Below, in pieces: positions 10,969 through 21,379 of a DNA stretch of 32,200 nucleotides. The DNA lies in contig JAFWLR010000005.1 in the NCBI GenBank assembly GCA_017510985.1, forward strand, positions 1 through 32,200, written 5' to 3'. A program made the translations under genes and the position numbers. How positions within the stretch are numbered: the stretch's first letter is position 1; each line of letters opens with the position of its first letter. Source of the DNA: Candidatus Saccharimonadota bacterium (GTDB lineage Bacteria > Patescibacteriota > Saccharimonadia > Saccharimonadales > Saccharimonadaceae). Under the pieces are notes generated by a model. The model saw nothing but the letters and a program-made list of their open reading frames with translations. It did not search any database and was not told the origin of the DNA.

Positions 10969-12708
10969 CTACTCCGCTACGCAGCGGACAGACCTCCCGC
11001 CGCGGCGGTAGTCCTGGTTCGCTGGCGAGACCCCGCTTGAATAGAAGTTCAGGTAGTAGCCGTTGGTACCAGGCGCAGTTACCGTACTAGACCAGTAGTC
11101 CCCGGCGCTCTGAGCGTAGTAAAGTGTAGTACTACTGACGTGGCCCGAGCGGACAAAGTAGAGAGGATCGCCATGGGCACCGGTAGTCCGGATCATGTTA
11201 AAACCATTAGCGGTGTAGCCGGTGTTGGTAGAGCCGGCGAGATCTTCACCATTAGTTACGCCTTGGGCTTTGAGCATCTTGTTGAACTCGGATATAACTG
11301 TGCCACCTTCAGTAATACCTTTTGGTAATCTCCAGCCCTTAGGACAGATAGAGTTGGGCATGACAGTGTATTGGGCCGCAAACGCACTAGAGTCGTTCAT
11401 GGCATTAGCGGCGGTAAAGTTGTAATAGTTGCCGATCTTGTAATGGGCGCATTCGGCGGCAGTATGGCCAGCATTAGTACAGTCACTCAATGTTCCGTAA
11501 ATCGTGTCATAAGCAGTAGTACCAGAATTATATATATAGACGTCGCTACCGTTCAATTGACCTTCAGCCTGGTAAGGAGCATAGTTATTGTTAGCCCAGC
11601 CACTAACTACATTCGTGGCCGAGTTAGAATAGCTGAAGTCGCTAATGGTGGCTGGAGTACCAGTGACAGTAGCATTACCAGCTGGAGTCCAAGTAATCAC
11701 GCCGGTGTCGCTATCTACCGAGTAGCCGTTTAGTAAGGTAGTGCCGTCTTGCGCGTAGGCAGTGGTGAGGTTGGTGTTTTCGGAAGTTAGCTCAATAGGG
11801 TTGCCATTATAGGTACCACCAATCTGGAGGTCTAGGTTCTGAGTCATCCAGAGCTGCGAAGTAGTACAGTTATCCCCGTCATAGTTGGTGCAGAGACGGG
11901 CCACGGTGTAGGTCTTGCCATCACGACCATCTGTGACAGTCTTTTCTTCACCTACAGCTAGGCTACCACCCCAATACTGAACATCTTGCATATTGTCTGC
12001 ACTGGGCATAGCGCCGCTACTTGGGTGGACCAAAGTGTATTTGACCTGCCCGACATAAGTGCCAGATGGCTGATTACCAGCGATATAGGCAGCATAGGTA
12101 GTGGTGAGTTTGGAACCGAGGGTGGCGTCGGTAGTGGAAGTATAATTAGCCGCTTTGGTGTAATTATCTGGCACTGTATGGTAATTATCAAAACTATTTA
12201 CGATAGATAAATTGTCCGGCAAATAAGTTTGTGAAGTATCAGTAACTTTAGTTAGCTTCATCGCCCACTGAGAAGTACTGCCACTAGTTGCGGTGCCGGT
12301 AGATATATCATAATTGCTACCTAATGTACTACTTTGTAATTTGTTGTTGCCTGTCGTATTGCCTCCGTACCCTACTACATAAATAGCATAGCCCGAAGGA
12401 TCATTACATAAGGTCTGAATAGTGGTCTGGCCGATACCATCCGGATAATAATCGCTAGCACCAGAATAGATGCCGCCCGGAATAGTACCATTGTGTGCCG
12501 TATTGACCGTAGCAGTCATAGAACAGAAAGCTGGGACTGTGACAGAAGCACGAGAGGCAGCGCTGTCGCTAGCGGTACCGGTGATAGCAAAGGCGCTGCT
12601 AAGGCTTAATCCTAGCCCCATCAAAATAGTAAAAATTAATAATGTTCCAATCATGCCATATATAATATGGCCAATTTGTTTTTCTATTTGTTGGTTGATG
12701 ACCTGCAT
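10969..12708 (-). CDS. Secreted FISUMP-domain surface protein
   Basis: 579 residues. N-terminus MQVINQQIEKQIGHIIYG, then a hydrophobic segment (MIGTLLIFTILMGLGLSLSS) and AFA, a probable signal peptide or anchor. Residues about 55-240 form a Thr/Ser/Asn-rich domain that looks beta-rich. From about residue 250 the sequence matches the FISUMP (Fib_succ_major) pattern: VTDGRDGKTYTVARL, LWMTQNLDL, YNFTAANAM, SICPKGWRLPKG, DYWSST and the C-terminal RSVRCV. This domain is common on surface proteins of Saccharibacteria and Bacteroidetes; its ligand is unknown. GAGAGGT lies 6 nt before the ATG. Its long leader has the crossing-hairpin architecture described separately. It converges with topA. Confidence 0.88.
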   Translation of the reverse strand: MQVINQQIEKQIGHIIYGMIGTLLIFTILMGLGLSLSSAFAITGTASDSAASRASVTVPAFCSMTATVNTAHNGTIPGGIYSGASDYYPDGIGQTTIQTLCNDPSGYAIYVVGYGGNTTGNNKLQSSTLGSNYDISTGTATSGSTSQWAMKLTKVTDTSQTYLPDNLSIVNSFDNYHTVPDNYTKAANYTSTTDATLGSKLTTTYAAYIAGNQPSGTYVGQVKYTLVHPSSGAMPSADNMQDVQYWGGSLAVGEEKTVTDGRDGKTYTVARLCTNYDGDNCTTSQLWMTQNLDLQIGGTYNGNPIELTSENTNLTTAYAQDGTTLLNGYSVDSDTGVITWTPAGNATVTGTPATISDFSYSNSATNVVSGWANNNYAPYQAEGQLNGSDVYIYNSGTTAYDTIYGTLSDCTNAGHTAAECAHYKIGNYYNFTAANAMNDSSAFAAQYTVMPNSICPKGWRLPKGITEGGTVISEFNKMLKAQGVTNGEDLAGSTNTGYTANGFNMIRTTGAHGDPLYFVRSGHVSSTTLYYAQSAGDYWSSTVTAPGTNGYYLNFYSSGVSPANQDYRRGGRSVRCVAE

Positions 12709-12852
12709 ATCTACCTCTCTTCTGGATGGGTTCTGCCAACTCTTTTATATCCCACTCAGCTCTCGCGGGAGTCCACCTAAGTGGCTGTCACTCGTCCATA
12801 TTAAATTTCACCTAATCCCCCAGCGGTGCCATCTTCTACGGGGATATGCGCA

Positions 12853-13007
12853 AAAATGGCACCGCGAGCGGTGCAATCATCAGAGATATTTTACAGACGT
12901 CACGCCTATAGAACTCACTGACATCCTCGTGGTGCCATTTTCGAGCTCGATAAGCGTAAGATATTAATCTTGGCGTCCTTAAATGTAAAATATTTCTAAT
13001 GATTGCA
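12853..13007 (-). promoter_or_regulatory. Structured 5' leader with crossing stems (attenuator or pseudoknot)
   Basis: In transcript order: segment 1 (13007-12972) pairs with segment 3 (12906-12872) as an imperfect stem of about 33 bp. Segment 2 (12941-12926, AAAATGGCACCACGAG) pairs with segment 4 (12868-12853, CTCGCGGTGCCATTTT) with one mismatch in 16. The two stems cross. Segment 4 is followed by a T run and GCGC, so stem 2:4, or the local hairpin GCACCG/CGGTGC (12874-12869 with 12864-12859), can terminate transcription. Segment 1 begins at the predicted start site. A further GGCACCGC near 12831-12824 could pair with segment 4 as a competitor. The same layout precedes the gene starting at 21113. 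Confidence 0.65.
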
Positions 13008-13012
13008 TTTCT

Positions 13013-13294: not shown

Positions 13295-14323
13295 ATGAAC
13301 CAAAACGCGGAAATCCTTAAAAATGCAACCAATGGTAGTTTAAAAGTAATTGAACAAGACCGCGAAAGAGAGATCATTTCGCGTCGGTTTGGGCTCACTG
13401 GCAACAGAGAGACTCTTGAGCAAATTGGCGAGACTTTGTCTATCACACGAGAGCGGGTGCGGCAGTTAGAGAAAGCAATTTTAATTCACCTGCAAATTTG
13501 CGCAGAAGAAGGCGAAATCGCAGAATTAGCTCCAGCGGAAAAGATTTTGATCCGCAATCTGACCGAGATGGGGCGAGTGGCAAAGCTGAGCGACCTAGCG
13601 AATAAGGTTTATGGTAAGGAAACTATGATGTCAGAAAGGGCTGGGATTTACTTTATCGCGACTTTTTCACAGAGCCTGACCATCGTAGAAGAAAATGACA
13701 AATATTATACTGCGGTGGGGATCGCAGATTACGGGGACAGTTTGAAAATCCGAGAGCGGGTAGACGAAATTGTAGGAATAATACACAAAAACAAGCAGCC
13801 GATGACTTTAGATGAGCTTGACAATAAGTTAAATTATGAACACCCAGACCATATCAAGGCAGTGGCGTCAATTTCTAAGCTATTGGCTACTTTGAATGGG
13901 GTATGGGGGCTGGCTAAATGGCCTTCGGTCAACCCCAAAAATATTCGCGATAAGATTTTTGTAATTTTGGAAGCCAAGAAGGAGCCGATGCATTTCTCGG
14001 ATATCGCTAAAGAGATTAAAGAGTCTAACTTTAAGCGAAAAAATGTAACGGTGCAAGCCATTCACAACGAGTTAATCAAAGACCCGCGATTTATTTTGAT
14101 TGGGCGAGGGATTTATGCGCTAAATTCTTGGGGGTACAAGAAGGGAACGATTTCAGATATTATTAAATCTATTTTGGAAAAGTCTGACAAGCCATTAACA
14201 AGGGAAGAAATCGTAAAACACGTGCTGCATGTGCGCAGAGTGAAAGAAACCACTATTTTGCTTAACTTACAAAATAAAGAATTATTTAAAAAGGTGGGGC
14301 GCAATTCTTATACTTTAGCTTAA
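13295..14323 (+). CDS. Sigma-70 region 4 / HARE-HTH fusion regulator
   Basis: 342 residues. Residues about 20-65 match sigma-70 region 4, including REREIISRRFGL, TLEQIGETLSITRERVRQLE and its -35-binding helix-turn-helix. No region 2 is present, so it is not a complete sigma factor. Three winged-helix-like segments follow. The segment from about residue 213 (IRDKIFVILEAKKEPMHFSD to IGRGIYAL) fits HARE-HTH, the fold of the RNA polymerase delta subunit; the last (ISDIIKSILEKSDKPLTREE to NSYTLA) looks like another copy, and one weaker copy lies between. I infer a promoter-recognition or RNA polymerase-associated regulator. Similar fusions are common in Candidate Phyla Radiation genomes. The start has AAAGAAAGG 6 nt upstream. 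The promoter carries a palindrome. Confidence 0.85.
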   Translation: MNQNAEILKNATNGSLKVIEQDREREIISRRFGLTGNRETLEQIGETLSITRERVRQLEKAILIHLQICAEEGEIAELAPAEKILIRNLTEMGRVAKLSDLANKVYGKETMMSERAGIYFIATFSQSLTIVEENDKYYTAVGIADYGDSLKIRERVDEIVGIIHKNKQPMTLDELDNKLNYEHPDHIKAVASISKLLATLNGVWGLAKWPSVNPKNIRDKIFVILEAKKEPMHFSDIAKEIKESNFKRKNVTVQAIHNELIKDPRFILIGRGIYALNSWGYKKGTISDIIKSILEKSDKPLTREEIVKHVLHVRRVKETTILLNLQNKELFKKVGRNSYTLA

Positions 14324-18605: not shown

Positions 18606-21113
18606 CTAAGGGGTGATGACCCAAGGGTCGGTGGAGATGCCGGTGCCACCTGATATGGTAGTTCCAGAGGCGAGAGAAATAGCGGGGCGGACACCATTGG
18701 AATAATACACAGCGTTACTACCTGAGTAACCGATAGAAGCCACACGAAATGCATTAACACTACCTTCCGGTTTACCACGATGGTAAATTGACAATAACCA
18801 AAAATAAGAACCAGACCGTAAGAACGAACGATAGGACCATCTAGAAGAGTAATCTGACGCTGTAGTTGGATAATATCTGGTTTGCCCATCTACCATAGTA
18901 ACTGCCGGAAAGCCATGCCCAGCAAAAGCTACTTCATCTTCCGTAAGAAGTGCTAATGGGTAATTTAAAAAACCATTATCAGCAGTCAATAAATCCTGCC
19001 CCGTAATGTTTGGGCAAGTTAGTGAAGCATATTTGCCGCTATAAGCATTTCGCCGCGCTGCGCCAAAGCTTACTCCGCTACCTATACCGTAGGTTAAACC
19101 TGGCGTATAAGGGATTGTAGAGTCATTTTCGGTGGGCGAAGTTGTAGTAGATCTATCATTGCACCACCCAGCACTAGTTTCTAGTTTAACGGCAAAGTTA
19201 GATAAGTTGCTTGTGTTGGTATACCAGTTTTCTATAGTAGTTTTTAGATTAGAGGCAGTCATAGTACCTTGGCTATTAGTATTTTTAAAGAGAGTGCCAT
19301 TTAGGGTGGAGTCGGTGTAAAAAGTGTCATTGGAGGGATTACCAGCATATTTGTAGTCGTTATTGTAGTTATAACCTACATATACTGCATAGCCCCTAGT
19401 GCCATATAGATTAGTATCGCTGCCTATATCATAAGTTATTGTGGCGTTTGTTGTTGTTCCTTGGTTAAATGGTGAACTTCCAGCCTGCGTATTAGCTCCA
19501 GATCTAGCACAACCATCTGTGGCATCCCAAGTGCCATTGTAAATCATCTTGGTGCCACCACTACCTGTAGTTCTTACTATTCGCCAACAAGTATCACTCT
19601 TGGTTGAGTTAGCATCGTGGAGTCTGACATAGTTTTGGTAATAGGCAGAGTCACCAGATGATGGGATACCGGAACTTTCTCCATTTGGGGCATCATAATA
19701 TTTATAAGTTTGATCTAATATACCTCGGAAATAATAGACATCACTTGTATTGGCCGCATCACTAGCTTCACCAAAGTAAGTAGAGTCGTATTTGTATACT
19801 CCCGAGTTAGATGTATCTGCATAAGGACTGTCTGAAACTGGTTCAGTGAGGAAAGCTTGCATATCAGATAGGGTTTGAGTTCTTTCGGTCAAGGTTTCAT
19901 TGGCTGTATCTTCTGTAGTTTTAACTTGGCAAGTAACTAGGTCATGGATAGTGGTTTTACCGTAGCAAGGGTCTGTTCGCCAAATGGCATAAAGGGTTAG
20001 TTCATTAGTATCTGAAGTCTGGTCTACAACATAAGCACCGCCTATATCGTATTTAGTAGCGTTAGCATCACCAGTATAGTTACTATTACAGTATCCATCT
20101 ACTGGTACTGCTGCTGTACACCAACCAGCAAAGAGATAACCAGTAGTAACTGGAATGTTGTGGTCTATACGACGAGGTGTCTCACTTGCAATGGTAGTGG
20201 TTTCACCCATGGTACCAGTATCACTAGCAGTATGATTGTCTGGCATATTAGTAACGGTGTCTCCACTACTACCTAGATTAGCATCATAAGTAATAGTATA
20301 TGGTGTAGGATTACCAATAGCAGCAAAGGTAAAGTCAGTACTGTAGGCTCCTTGTGGTACAGTATAGTCTAATCTAGATCCTATAGCTACAGTATAGTTA
20401 GTAGGTATTAGGTCTCCTGTGTTAGTATCTGTACCACTAGCTGCAGTAGTAATATCTAAGATTTGGCTATTACTACCTATAGGAGCAGGTAGATAGTACT
20501 TGTTAGTAGTATTGTCTATACAGGAACTAGTGGTGCTGTCTGTACAGTACTTACTAGGTAAATAGCCCCATTTGTTGTTATAGTTAGTAGTACTAGTAGA
20601 GTCTGTAGCAGAGAAGGTAGTAGCAGTAATACCTACTGTACCAGTAGGAGGAGTAAAGGTATCTATAGTATGGGTCACATTAGGATTCACACTAGTGTCT
20701 GTATAGGAAAGGGGAGTAGAGGAAGTATTAAGGGTATAGCCACTGGCATGATTAGTCTCTACACCAATAGTCACTGCATTACTACTAGCAAACTTACCAT
20801 CCTTAATAGGTGGGATATTCATTACTATTGGTCCAGTAGAAGAGACTGAGACTGTGATGGAGCTGGCTGTAGCATAGGTATTACTAACATTAAATAGTAC
20901 TGGCAAGGCTAATAATAGGATAAGGGCAATTGGAATACAACTAATAAGCCCACTGAAAGTGCCAGTAGTAGTTATACACTTACCCTCCATAGTCTGGATG
21001 CTGTCTCTGACATCCCGACCGGGCTGTCTACTGACACTTTCACTGGGCTCATTATGCCAATTACTTTTCAGATACTTATTTGCGAGTTTAATTCTCTTTG
21101 TGATTAGAGACAT
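18606..21113 (-). CDS. Large secreted surface protein with InlB-type repeat
   Basis: 835 residues. It has a long basic N-terminal region of about 50 residues, then a hydrophobic segment (LISCIPIALILLLALPVLF) and a cleavage-like site near NTYA. Residues about 85-260 are a Thr/Ser-rich beta domain. From about 275 (YTITYDANLG to LTLYAIW) it matches the InlB B-repeat/Listeria-Bacteroides repeat. The last 400 residues resemble exported C-terminal domains with CWRIVRTTG, YWLLS and NGVRPAISL (DUF6273-like). I assume an adhesin or other surface role; no enzyme motif is seen. GGAGGT lies 5 nt before ATG 21113, supporting this start over Met42. The leader carries the same crossing-stem architecture as the gene at 10969-12708. 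Confidence 0.85.
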   Translation of the reverse strand: MSLITKRIKLANKYLKSNWHNEPSESVSRQPGRDVRDSIQTMEGKCITTTGTFSGLISCIPIALILLLALPVLFNVSNTYATASSITVSVSSTGPIVMNIPPIKDGKFASSNAVTIGVETNHASGYTLNTSSTPLSYTDTSVNPNVTHTIDTFTPPTGTVGITATTFSATDSTSTTNYNNKWGYLPSKYCTDSTTSSCIDNTTNKYYLPAPIGSNSQILDITTAASGTDTNTGDLIPTNYTVAIGSRLDYTVPQGAYSTDFTFAAIGNPTPYTITYDANLGSSGDTVTNMPDNHTASDTGTMGETTTIASETPRRIDHNIPVTTGYLFAGWCTAAVPVDGYCNSNYTGDANATKYDIGGAYVVDQTSDTNELTLYAIWRTDPCYGKTTIHDLVTCQVKTTEDTANETLTERTQTLSDMQAFLTEPVSDSPYADTSNSGVYKYDSTYFGEASDAANTSDVYYFRGILDQTYKYYDAPNGESSGIPSSGDSAYYQNYVRLHDANSTKSDTCWRIVRTTGSGGTKMIYNGTWDATDGCARSGANTQAGSSPFNQGTTTNATITYDIGSDTNLYGTRGYAVYVGYNYNNDYKYAGNPSNDTFYTDSTLNGTLFKNTNSQGTMTASNLKTTIENWYTNTSNLSNFAVKLETSAGWCNDRSTTTSPTENDSTIPYTPGLTYGIGSGVSFGAARRNAYSGKYASLTCPNITGQDLLTADNGFLNYPLALLTEDEVAFAGHGFPAVTMVDGQTRYYPTTASDYSSRWSYRSFLRSGSYFWLLSIYHRGKPEGSVNAFRVASIGYSGSNAVYYSNGVRPAISLASGTTISGGTGISTDPWVITP

Positions 21114-21155
21114 GAGACCTCCGGGTTAGTTTGCTAATTCCCTGGCGGCTATATA

Positions 21156-21296
21156 AAAACGGCACCGCGAAGGGGTGCTATACACTAATTGCTTAAACCA
21201 GATGGTCTCAACAACTAATGGCCCTCACGGTGCCGTTTTCGCTGTTGAGTTTAATCTGTATAAAAGAGCCATCTGTTTTAACAATTAGTATATAGC
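21156..21296 (-). promoter_or_regulatory. Structured 5' leader with crossing stems, second copy
   Basis: In transcript order: segment 1 (21296-21266) begins exactly at the predicted start site and pairs with segment 3 (21209-21177) over about 31 positions. Segment 2 (21239-21228, AAAACGGCACCG) pairs perfectly with segment 4 (21167-21156, CGGTGCCGTTTT), followed by further T's. A local alternative for segment 4 is GCACC/GGTGC (21178-21174 with 21166-21162). CTCAACA/TGTTGAG (21249-21243 with 21213-21207) can form inside. Sequence identity to the first leader is confined to the GGCACC core and GCGGTGCC; the arms of 1:3 are different but still complementary. Confidence 0.65.
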
Positions 21297-21302
21297 GATT
21301 CC

Positions 21303-21311
21303 ATTATAACA
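21303..21311 (-). promoter_or_regulatory. Extended -10 promoter of the 835-residue surface gene
   Basis: Minus strand TGTTATAAT (TATAAT at 21308-21303). The predicted start near 21296 gives a leader of about 183 nt. No convincing -35 is visible. Confidence 0.6.
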
Positions 21312-21379
21312 CGCCAAAATCGGCTTGAAAAGTCTTGATTTTGAATGAAAATTATGGTGTTATAATAGAGGTGAGAGTG

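Follow-up and report, generated by a model that had tools for sequence, protein, structure and literature searches.

The leader at 21.2 kb of the window (the whole stretch of 32,200 nucleotides that was analysed) represents one instance of an RNA structure not catalogued before. The structure is found in a genus of gut Saccharibacteria, in up to dozens of copies per genome, a lower bound that depends on the search pattern, with many copies at contig ends. We consider it somewhat probable that this is a multi-copy cis-regulatory leader RNA of the transcription-attenuator type, placed at the +1 end of mRNAs for variable surface proteins; its structure, placement and gene association are read from the sequence, and we infer termination, read-through and a signal. 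The leader adds a structured RNA family from the Candidate Phyla Radiation that displays unusually strong covariation and is absent from Rfam. Almost all genes of one large family of surface proteins in gut Saccharibacteria are tied to it. The variable domains of these proteins trace to diversity-generating retroelements, so that a tiny genome's handling of a diversified adhesin repertoire becomes testable.

The leader occupies positions 21296–21155 of the minus strand, and its long hairpin, formed by segments 1 and 3, begins at the predicted transcription start. The promoter (21303–21331, minus strand) consists of a -35 box TTTTCA (21331–21326), a 17-nt spacer and a TG followed by the -10 box TATAAT (21308–21303), which ends 6 nt before position 21296; segment 1 thus starts at the predicted start site, as the preliminary description had it. 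On the same strand, segment 1 (21269–21296) forms the 5' arm of the hairpin (P1 and P1b) and covaries with segment 3 (21177–21205), the 3' arm. Between the two lie a U-rich 5' bulge CTCTTTTATACAGATTAAA (21250–21268; bulge 2 of the family) and an upper, inner stem, in which the 5' strand CTCAACAGC (21241–21249) pairs with the 3' strand GTTGTTGAG (21207–21215); segment 2, AAAACGGCACCGTGAGGG (21222–21239), is carried in the apical loop. Segment 4, CCCTTCGCGGTGCCG (21173–21160), follows directly 3' of the hairpin base, is complementary to segment 2 and runs into five Ts (21159–21155), which together (21155–21173) make a terminator-like 3' strand. The ribosome-binding site GGAGG (21118–21122) and the gene of an 835-aa surface protein (18606–21113) come next, both on the minus strand. 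The predicted fold of 21153–21297 has an energy of -52.1 kcal/mol (z -6.5), and none of 200 shuffles was equally good. A 15-codon open frame (ATGGCTCTTTTATAC...CCGTGA, 21272–21225, minus strand), seen by eye in this one leader, starts in the 5' arm and ends within segment 2.

A second leader lies at 12848–13007 of the minus strand, with segment 1 at 13007–12984, segment 2 at 12946–12926, segment 3 at 12895–12872 and segment 4 at 12868–12848. Its fold (12840–13010, minus strand) also beats shuffles (z -5.9), and the claim that both leaders have the same order of four segments holds. What they have in common is this order of parts and the GGCACC/GGTGCC core; the 1:3 arms differ between them, yet are complementary within each leader. 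The core GGCACC/GCGGTGCC is indeed kept and lies within a helix of 12 bp that is extended by an A:U pair. The second leader also has a downstream GGCACC (12825–12830, minus strand) complementary to segment 4, designated segment 5, which is absent from the 21.2-kb leader.

Behind the second leader is the gene of a 579-aa surface protein with a FISUMP domain (10969–12708, minus strand; TIGR02145, 51.2 bits, cut-off 41.65). BLASTP between the two surface proteins of the window gave no match, and the C-terminus of the 835-aa protein has a weak DUF6273 match (E 0.018) below the cut-off. Its residues 79–273, however, align with a profile of the leader-controlled family (hhalign 96.1%, E 3.5e-9). The two proteins are therefore relatives with homologous N-terminal domains and different C-terminal halves, and the earlier designation of them as unrelated was wrong. 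Coordinated expression of both genes is plausible from the shared architecture. A gene divergent from the one behind the second leader encodes a 342-aa protein (13295–14323, plus strand) with a sigma-70 region 4 and a HARE-HTH domain, delta-subunit-like.

Covariation of the hairpin and of helix 2:4

From the fetched DNA we collected 140 distinct copies, of which 120 are non-redundant (at most 80% alike). This 120-copy set was used for element counts, 2:4 pairing, arm swapping and the T-run, while the tests of spacing, energy, segment 5, ribosome sites and antisense promoters were made on an earlier set that held a few antisense duplicates. RNAalifold recovered the lower stem unaided from a plain MAFFT alignment of 61 copies. 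All 13 lower-stem pairs have two-sided changes that keep the pair, with 94% of the cells paired. For the lower stem and helix 2:4 together, 93% of the cells are paired, compared with 78.5% after shuffling and 35–48% when the strands are slid, and the covariation score of 0.436 falls to 0.151 after shuffling and to 0.109 or less after sliding. An alignment-free comparison gave a similar picture: the own 5' arm is the best partner of the 3' arm in 115 of 120 copies, with a mean pairing energy of -45.9 kcal/mol for own and -17.9 kcal/mol for foreign arms. The view that compensatory change here reflects a selected RNA structure is thus strongly supported by the lower stem, helix 2:4 and own-arm pairing. 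At columns 17:176 of alignment A2, in the lower stem, a U-G wobble is preferred (26 UG, 17 UA, 13 CG); position 8 of helix 2:4, too, is usually U-G.

The family plan, read along the 5' side, is a stem of ~18 bp, a 5' bulge of ~5 nt, a further ~7 bp, a U-rich 5' bulge of ~14 nt, an upper stem of ~13 bp and a loop of ~25 nt that holds segment 2. The 3' strand of the long hairpin, comprising the lower arms and the upper stem, has a median length of 42 nt. Sequence conservation is limited to segments 2 and 4 and the U-rich bulge, which contains TTTT in 83 of 119 copies.

Segments 2 and 4 can form a GC-rich helix of 12–17 bp across the family, in which compensatory changes are found. At position 9 the pairs are AU in 61 copies, GC in 32, UA in eight and GU in seven of the 120; position 7 has GC in 76, AU in 25 and A.C in 19, the AU class having been collected partly by a pattern that requires it. 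The only variants of GGCACC in the core are GGCATC and GGCGCC, and pairing is kept through wobble. In 112 of 120 copies the T-run is exactly five long. The search design itself accounts in part for the constancy of the six core bases and of the first Ts, but not for that of the fifth T or of the core flanks in the first search. The five Ts are also present in copies reached via the gene and not via the pattern. Segment 5, a further downstream copy of segment 2, occurs in 81 of 117 copies, compared with 14% in shuffles, and is missing from about a third, including the 21.2-kb leader. As a competitor it is not systematically stronger than segment 2 (18 stronger, 48 weaker).

Distribution and downstream genes

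The genome search proposed in the preliminary description found four occurrences of the core pattern GGCACC..GCGGTGCCNTTTT and none of the reversed pattern in the genome of the window (454 kb, 60% complete); the core pattern is also present in 14 of 100 related genomes. A stricter pattern recovered 88 stretches of public genome contigs, which belong to gut Saccharibacteria, mostly from ruminants, together with five rabbit-gut loci. When wobble variants of segment 2 were allowed, the leader was present in 49 of the genus's 118 genomes, the relaxed-pattern counts on both strands counting some copies twice; a stricter pattern was found in none of 252 genomes from other genera of the order. All of these genomes are apparently metagenome assemblies. 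A scan of 1.10 Mb for the architecture, made independently of the core, had the GGTGCC core in 197 of its 206 matches, and the nine core-less ones correspond to the background seen in the reversed-sequence control (12 in 0.85 Mb). Rfam 15 gave no match on the window, none on the leaders of four copies (L001–L004) at E up to 5, and only tRNAs at gathering thresholds on the rabbit loci; the leader is described nowhere in the literature searched. The rabbit-gut assemblies are titled Clostridia, Oscillospiraceae or Bacilli (L111, L119, L121, L136, L151) and have the same leader and protein family, either as mislabelled bins or through transfer.

In 103 of 119 copies a TAYAAT box precedes the hairpin base, mostly by 5–6 nt, which would place the first nucleotide of the RNA at this base. 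Sense promoters were predicted for 53 of 113 copies and for nine in shuffles. With the hairpin base at +1, the structure could be imagined as a blunt 5'-end hairpin that protects the mRNA from 5'-end-dependent decay, with 2:4 or 4:5 merely adding stability. We regard this as distinctly unlikely, since it leaves unexplained the covarying 2:4 helix, the conserved run of five Ts and the match of the loop to a strand beyond the hairpin.

The median distance from the T-tract to the gene start is about 70 nt. In the 21.2-kb leader, the minimum-energy fold pairs the GGAGG region with segment 4, as would be expected if segment 4 (CCUU/CCUC) exerted translational control by masking the ribosome-binding site; this happens in 3 of 83 genes, compared with 11 when segment 4 is shuffled, which makes such masking very improbable. 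The FISUMP domain (TIGR02145) is matched by 41 of the 48 downstream proteins that are complete; six have a match to the CPR Pam pilin model NF058581, all listed scores of which fall short of the curated cut-off. Conversely, three genomes contain 45 FISUMP genes whose upstream DNA could be read, and 41 of these have the leader; this count is based on one Pfam family, includes one copy with GGTGCCAATTTT that the script had missed and excludes one retroelement template. The suggestion of shared control of surface proteins is borne out by this gene context, FISUMP genes standing behind leaders.

Proposed attenuation mechanism

In the mechanism that we propose, the long hairpin would fold first and be complete before segment 4 is made. 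Segment 2 may then capture segment 4, and the resulting helix with its U-tract would act as an intrinsic terminator that ends the mRNA before the gene, while the full hairpin would keep segment 2 out of reach and let the polymerase read on. Where present, segment 5 could take segment 4 away. Helices 1:3 and 2:4 have no nucleotides in common, and their exclusion would be topological, or else 2:4 would form a pseudoknot at the cost of the upper stem. The median energy is -45.6 kcal/mol for the full hairpin and -41.8 kcal/mol for the terminator state (set with a few antisense duplicates), with a median difference of 4 kcal/mol; the hairpin differs by a median of 1–4 kcal/mol, depending on the penalty, from a pseudoknot in which the lower stem is kept and the upper one lost. 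Because these three states are nearly equal in energy, we read the leader as a putative attenuator, with 2:4 in competition with either the upper stem or the complete hairpin. The general attenuator feature of a GC-rich helix and U-tract between promoter and gene is present. Against this reading, most copies are predicted to favour the hairpin over the terminator state, which could make termination weak. Unlike in classical attenuators, helices 1:3 and 2:4 have no overlap, and about a third of the copies have no segment 5.

The same near-equality of pseudoknot and hairpin would also suit a pseudoknotted sensor, riboswitch-like or protein-binding, in which 2:4 pairs without loss of the lower stem and one of the states is stabilised by a ligand or protein acting at the U-rich bulge or the apical loop. 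Consistent with this, nearly every copy keeps segment 2 in the apical loop, unpaired and clear of the arms, and the U-rich bulge 2 is conserved. There is, however, no compact aptamer-like conserved core beyond segments 2 and 4, the regulated genes are non-metabolic, and the predicted equal-arm fold-back geometry found no support (rho -0.59 between lower and upper arm length, with arm assignment partly ambiguous). We therefore consider a sensor of this kind unlikely, though the best placed of the alternatives.

A further possibility is cross-talk in trans, in which a free segment 2 captures segment 4 of another nascent leader and surface genes exclude one another. In its favour, the 2/4 code of genome G056 is nearly identical at all loci and the arms are unique. 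The window's own genome, in contrast, has differing 2/4 codes between loci, and its own 2/4 segments pair on average at -20.7 kcal/mol compared with -17.4 kcal/mol for foreign ones, although few loci there have their own segment as the one best partner. Selection for orthogonal arms was not seen either, cross-pairing being -17.2 kcal/mol within and -17.7 kcal/mol between genomes. Altogether, cross-talk as the function of the leader appears highly improbable.

With attenuation as the preferred reading, the leader can be placed beside known systems. Attenuators of amino-acid biosynthesis (trp/his type) have four segments, the last followed by a U-tract, which pair as 1:2, 2:3 and 3:4, and a leader peptide. 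The leader likewise has four numbered segments with a U-tract after the last, and differs in pairing 1:3 and 2:4. In H-type pseudoknot riboswitches of the preQ1-I type, a loop pairs with a strand just 3' of its hairpin, near expression signals. The loop of the leader hairpin does the same; unlike preQ1-I, the hairpin is roughly 40 bp long, has highly variable arms and has no Rfam match. The leader resembles T-box leaders in having a string similar to UGGNACCGC and, ahead of the U-tract, a terminator strand GCGGUNCCA; it differs in that UGG is changed to CGG in many copies, a C precedes GGCACC in about a third, and the genes behind the leader encode surface proteins. Assignment as a T-box was rejected because the four copies searched had no Rfam match.

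In pT181 the competing helices share a segment, whereas 1:3 and 2:4 of the leader share none. As in the pT181 repC attenuators, a hairpin of the 5' leader would compete with an intrinsic terminator before the gene, and the structure would decide on read-through. In countertranscript-driven attenuators of this kind an antisense RNA tips the balance (PMC3753616). Over the leaders, antisense promoters are at chance level (35 versus 34 in shuffled sequence), and antisense-RNA control is not supported on this count.

Evolution of the leaders and diversity-generating retroelements

Arms from the same genome barely exceed shuffled sequence in their mutual identity (0.64 versus 0.61), even where the DNA just after the T-tract is more than 80% identical. 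Presumed orthologous leaders of different genomes, by comparison, have a 5'-arm identity of 0.82–0.98, sometimes with proteins that are far more divergent (seven pairs). Since arms differ, downstream DNA is alike and orthologous arms are alike, the downstream sequence seems to be homogenised between loci while the leaders stay in place. A gene conversion tract reaching segment 3 would destroy the stem pairing, a possible reason for the boundary at segment 4.

The unrelated arms also exclude a mobile palindrome inserted twice in the window, which had been named as a possible refutation. More generally, the many copies per genome and the inverted repeats would fit a mobile palindrome or invertible DNA element upstream of several genes. 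The spacing to promoter and gene is fixed, however, and viral contigs held no leader under the pattern used. Inversion from segment 2 to segment 4 would make segment 3 repeat segment 1, yet the hairpin-forming orientation was found in 102 of the 104 matches examined first. The chance that the leader is such an element seems negligible.

In all four genomes examined, reverse transcriptase genes lie beside a template and a variable repeat, which identifies diversity-generating retroelements; 95–100% of the mismatches between the two repeats fall at template adenines. The window's own genome (G000) has template and variable repeats at L254:1561–1707 and 2061–2207 of contig C14, with 95% of 20 mismatches at template adenines, and its reverse transcriptase at C14:3181–3804. 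The C-terminus of the target, judged DUF6273-like by eye, resembles that of the 835-aa protein. The other retroelements (L252, L253, L255, L256) are in G056, G009 (two) and G005. Readable local targets belong to the surface family, being of the FISUMP type in G056 and G009. Three local targets have no leader pattern in the fetched surrounding DNA, unlike their dispersed relatives. In most of the dispersed, leader-bearing paralogues, a fraction of 0.36–0.81 of the mismatches falls at template adenines, versus about 0.1–0.3 between templates, as expected for descendants of diversified copies.

Cultivated Patescibacteria are obligate episymbionts that live on other microbes (PMC12206443), and by analogy the surface proteins behind the leader may serve host attachment. 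It is a tentative and rather unlikely idea that one architecture, with a private stem at each locus, chooses the expressed adhesins from a retroelement-seeded repertoire, possibly with cross-talk via the 2/4 code, so that few would be on at once. Relatives that lack the leader core (L222–L251; G022, G001 and others) have short open frames of about 90–130 aa with the FISUMP C-terminus at their end, which look like templates or silent cassettes.
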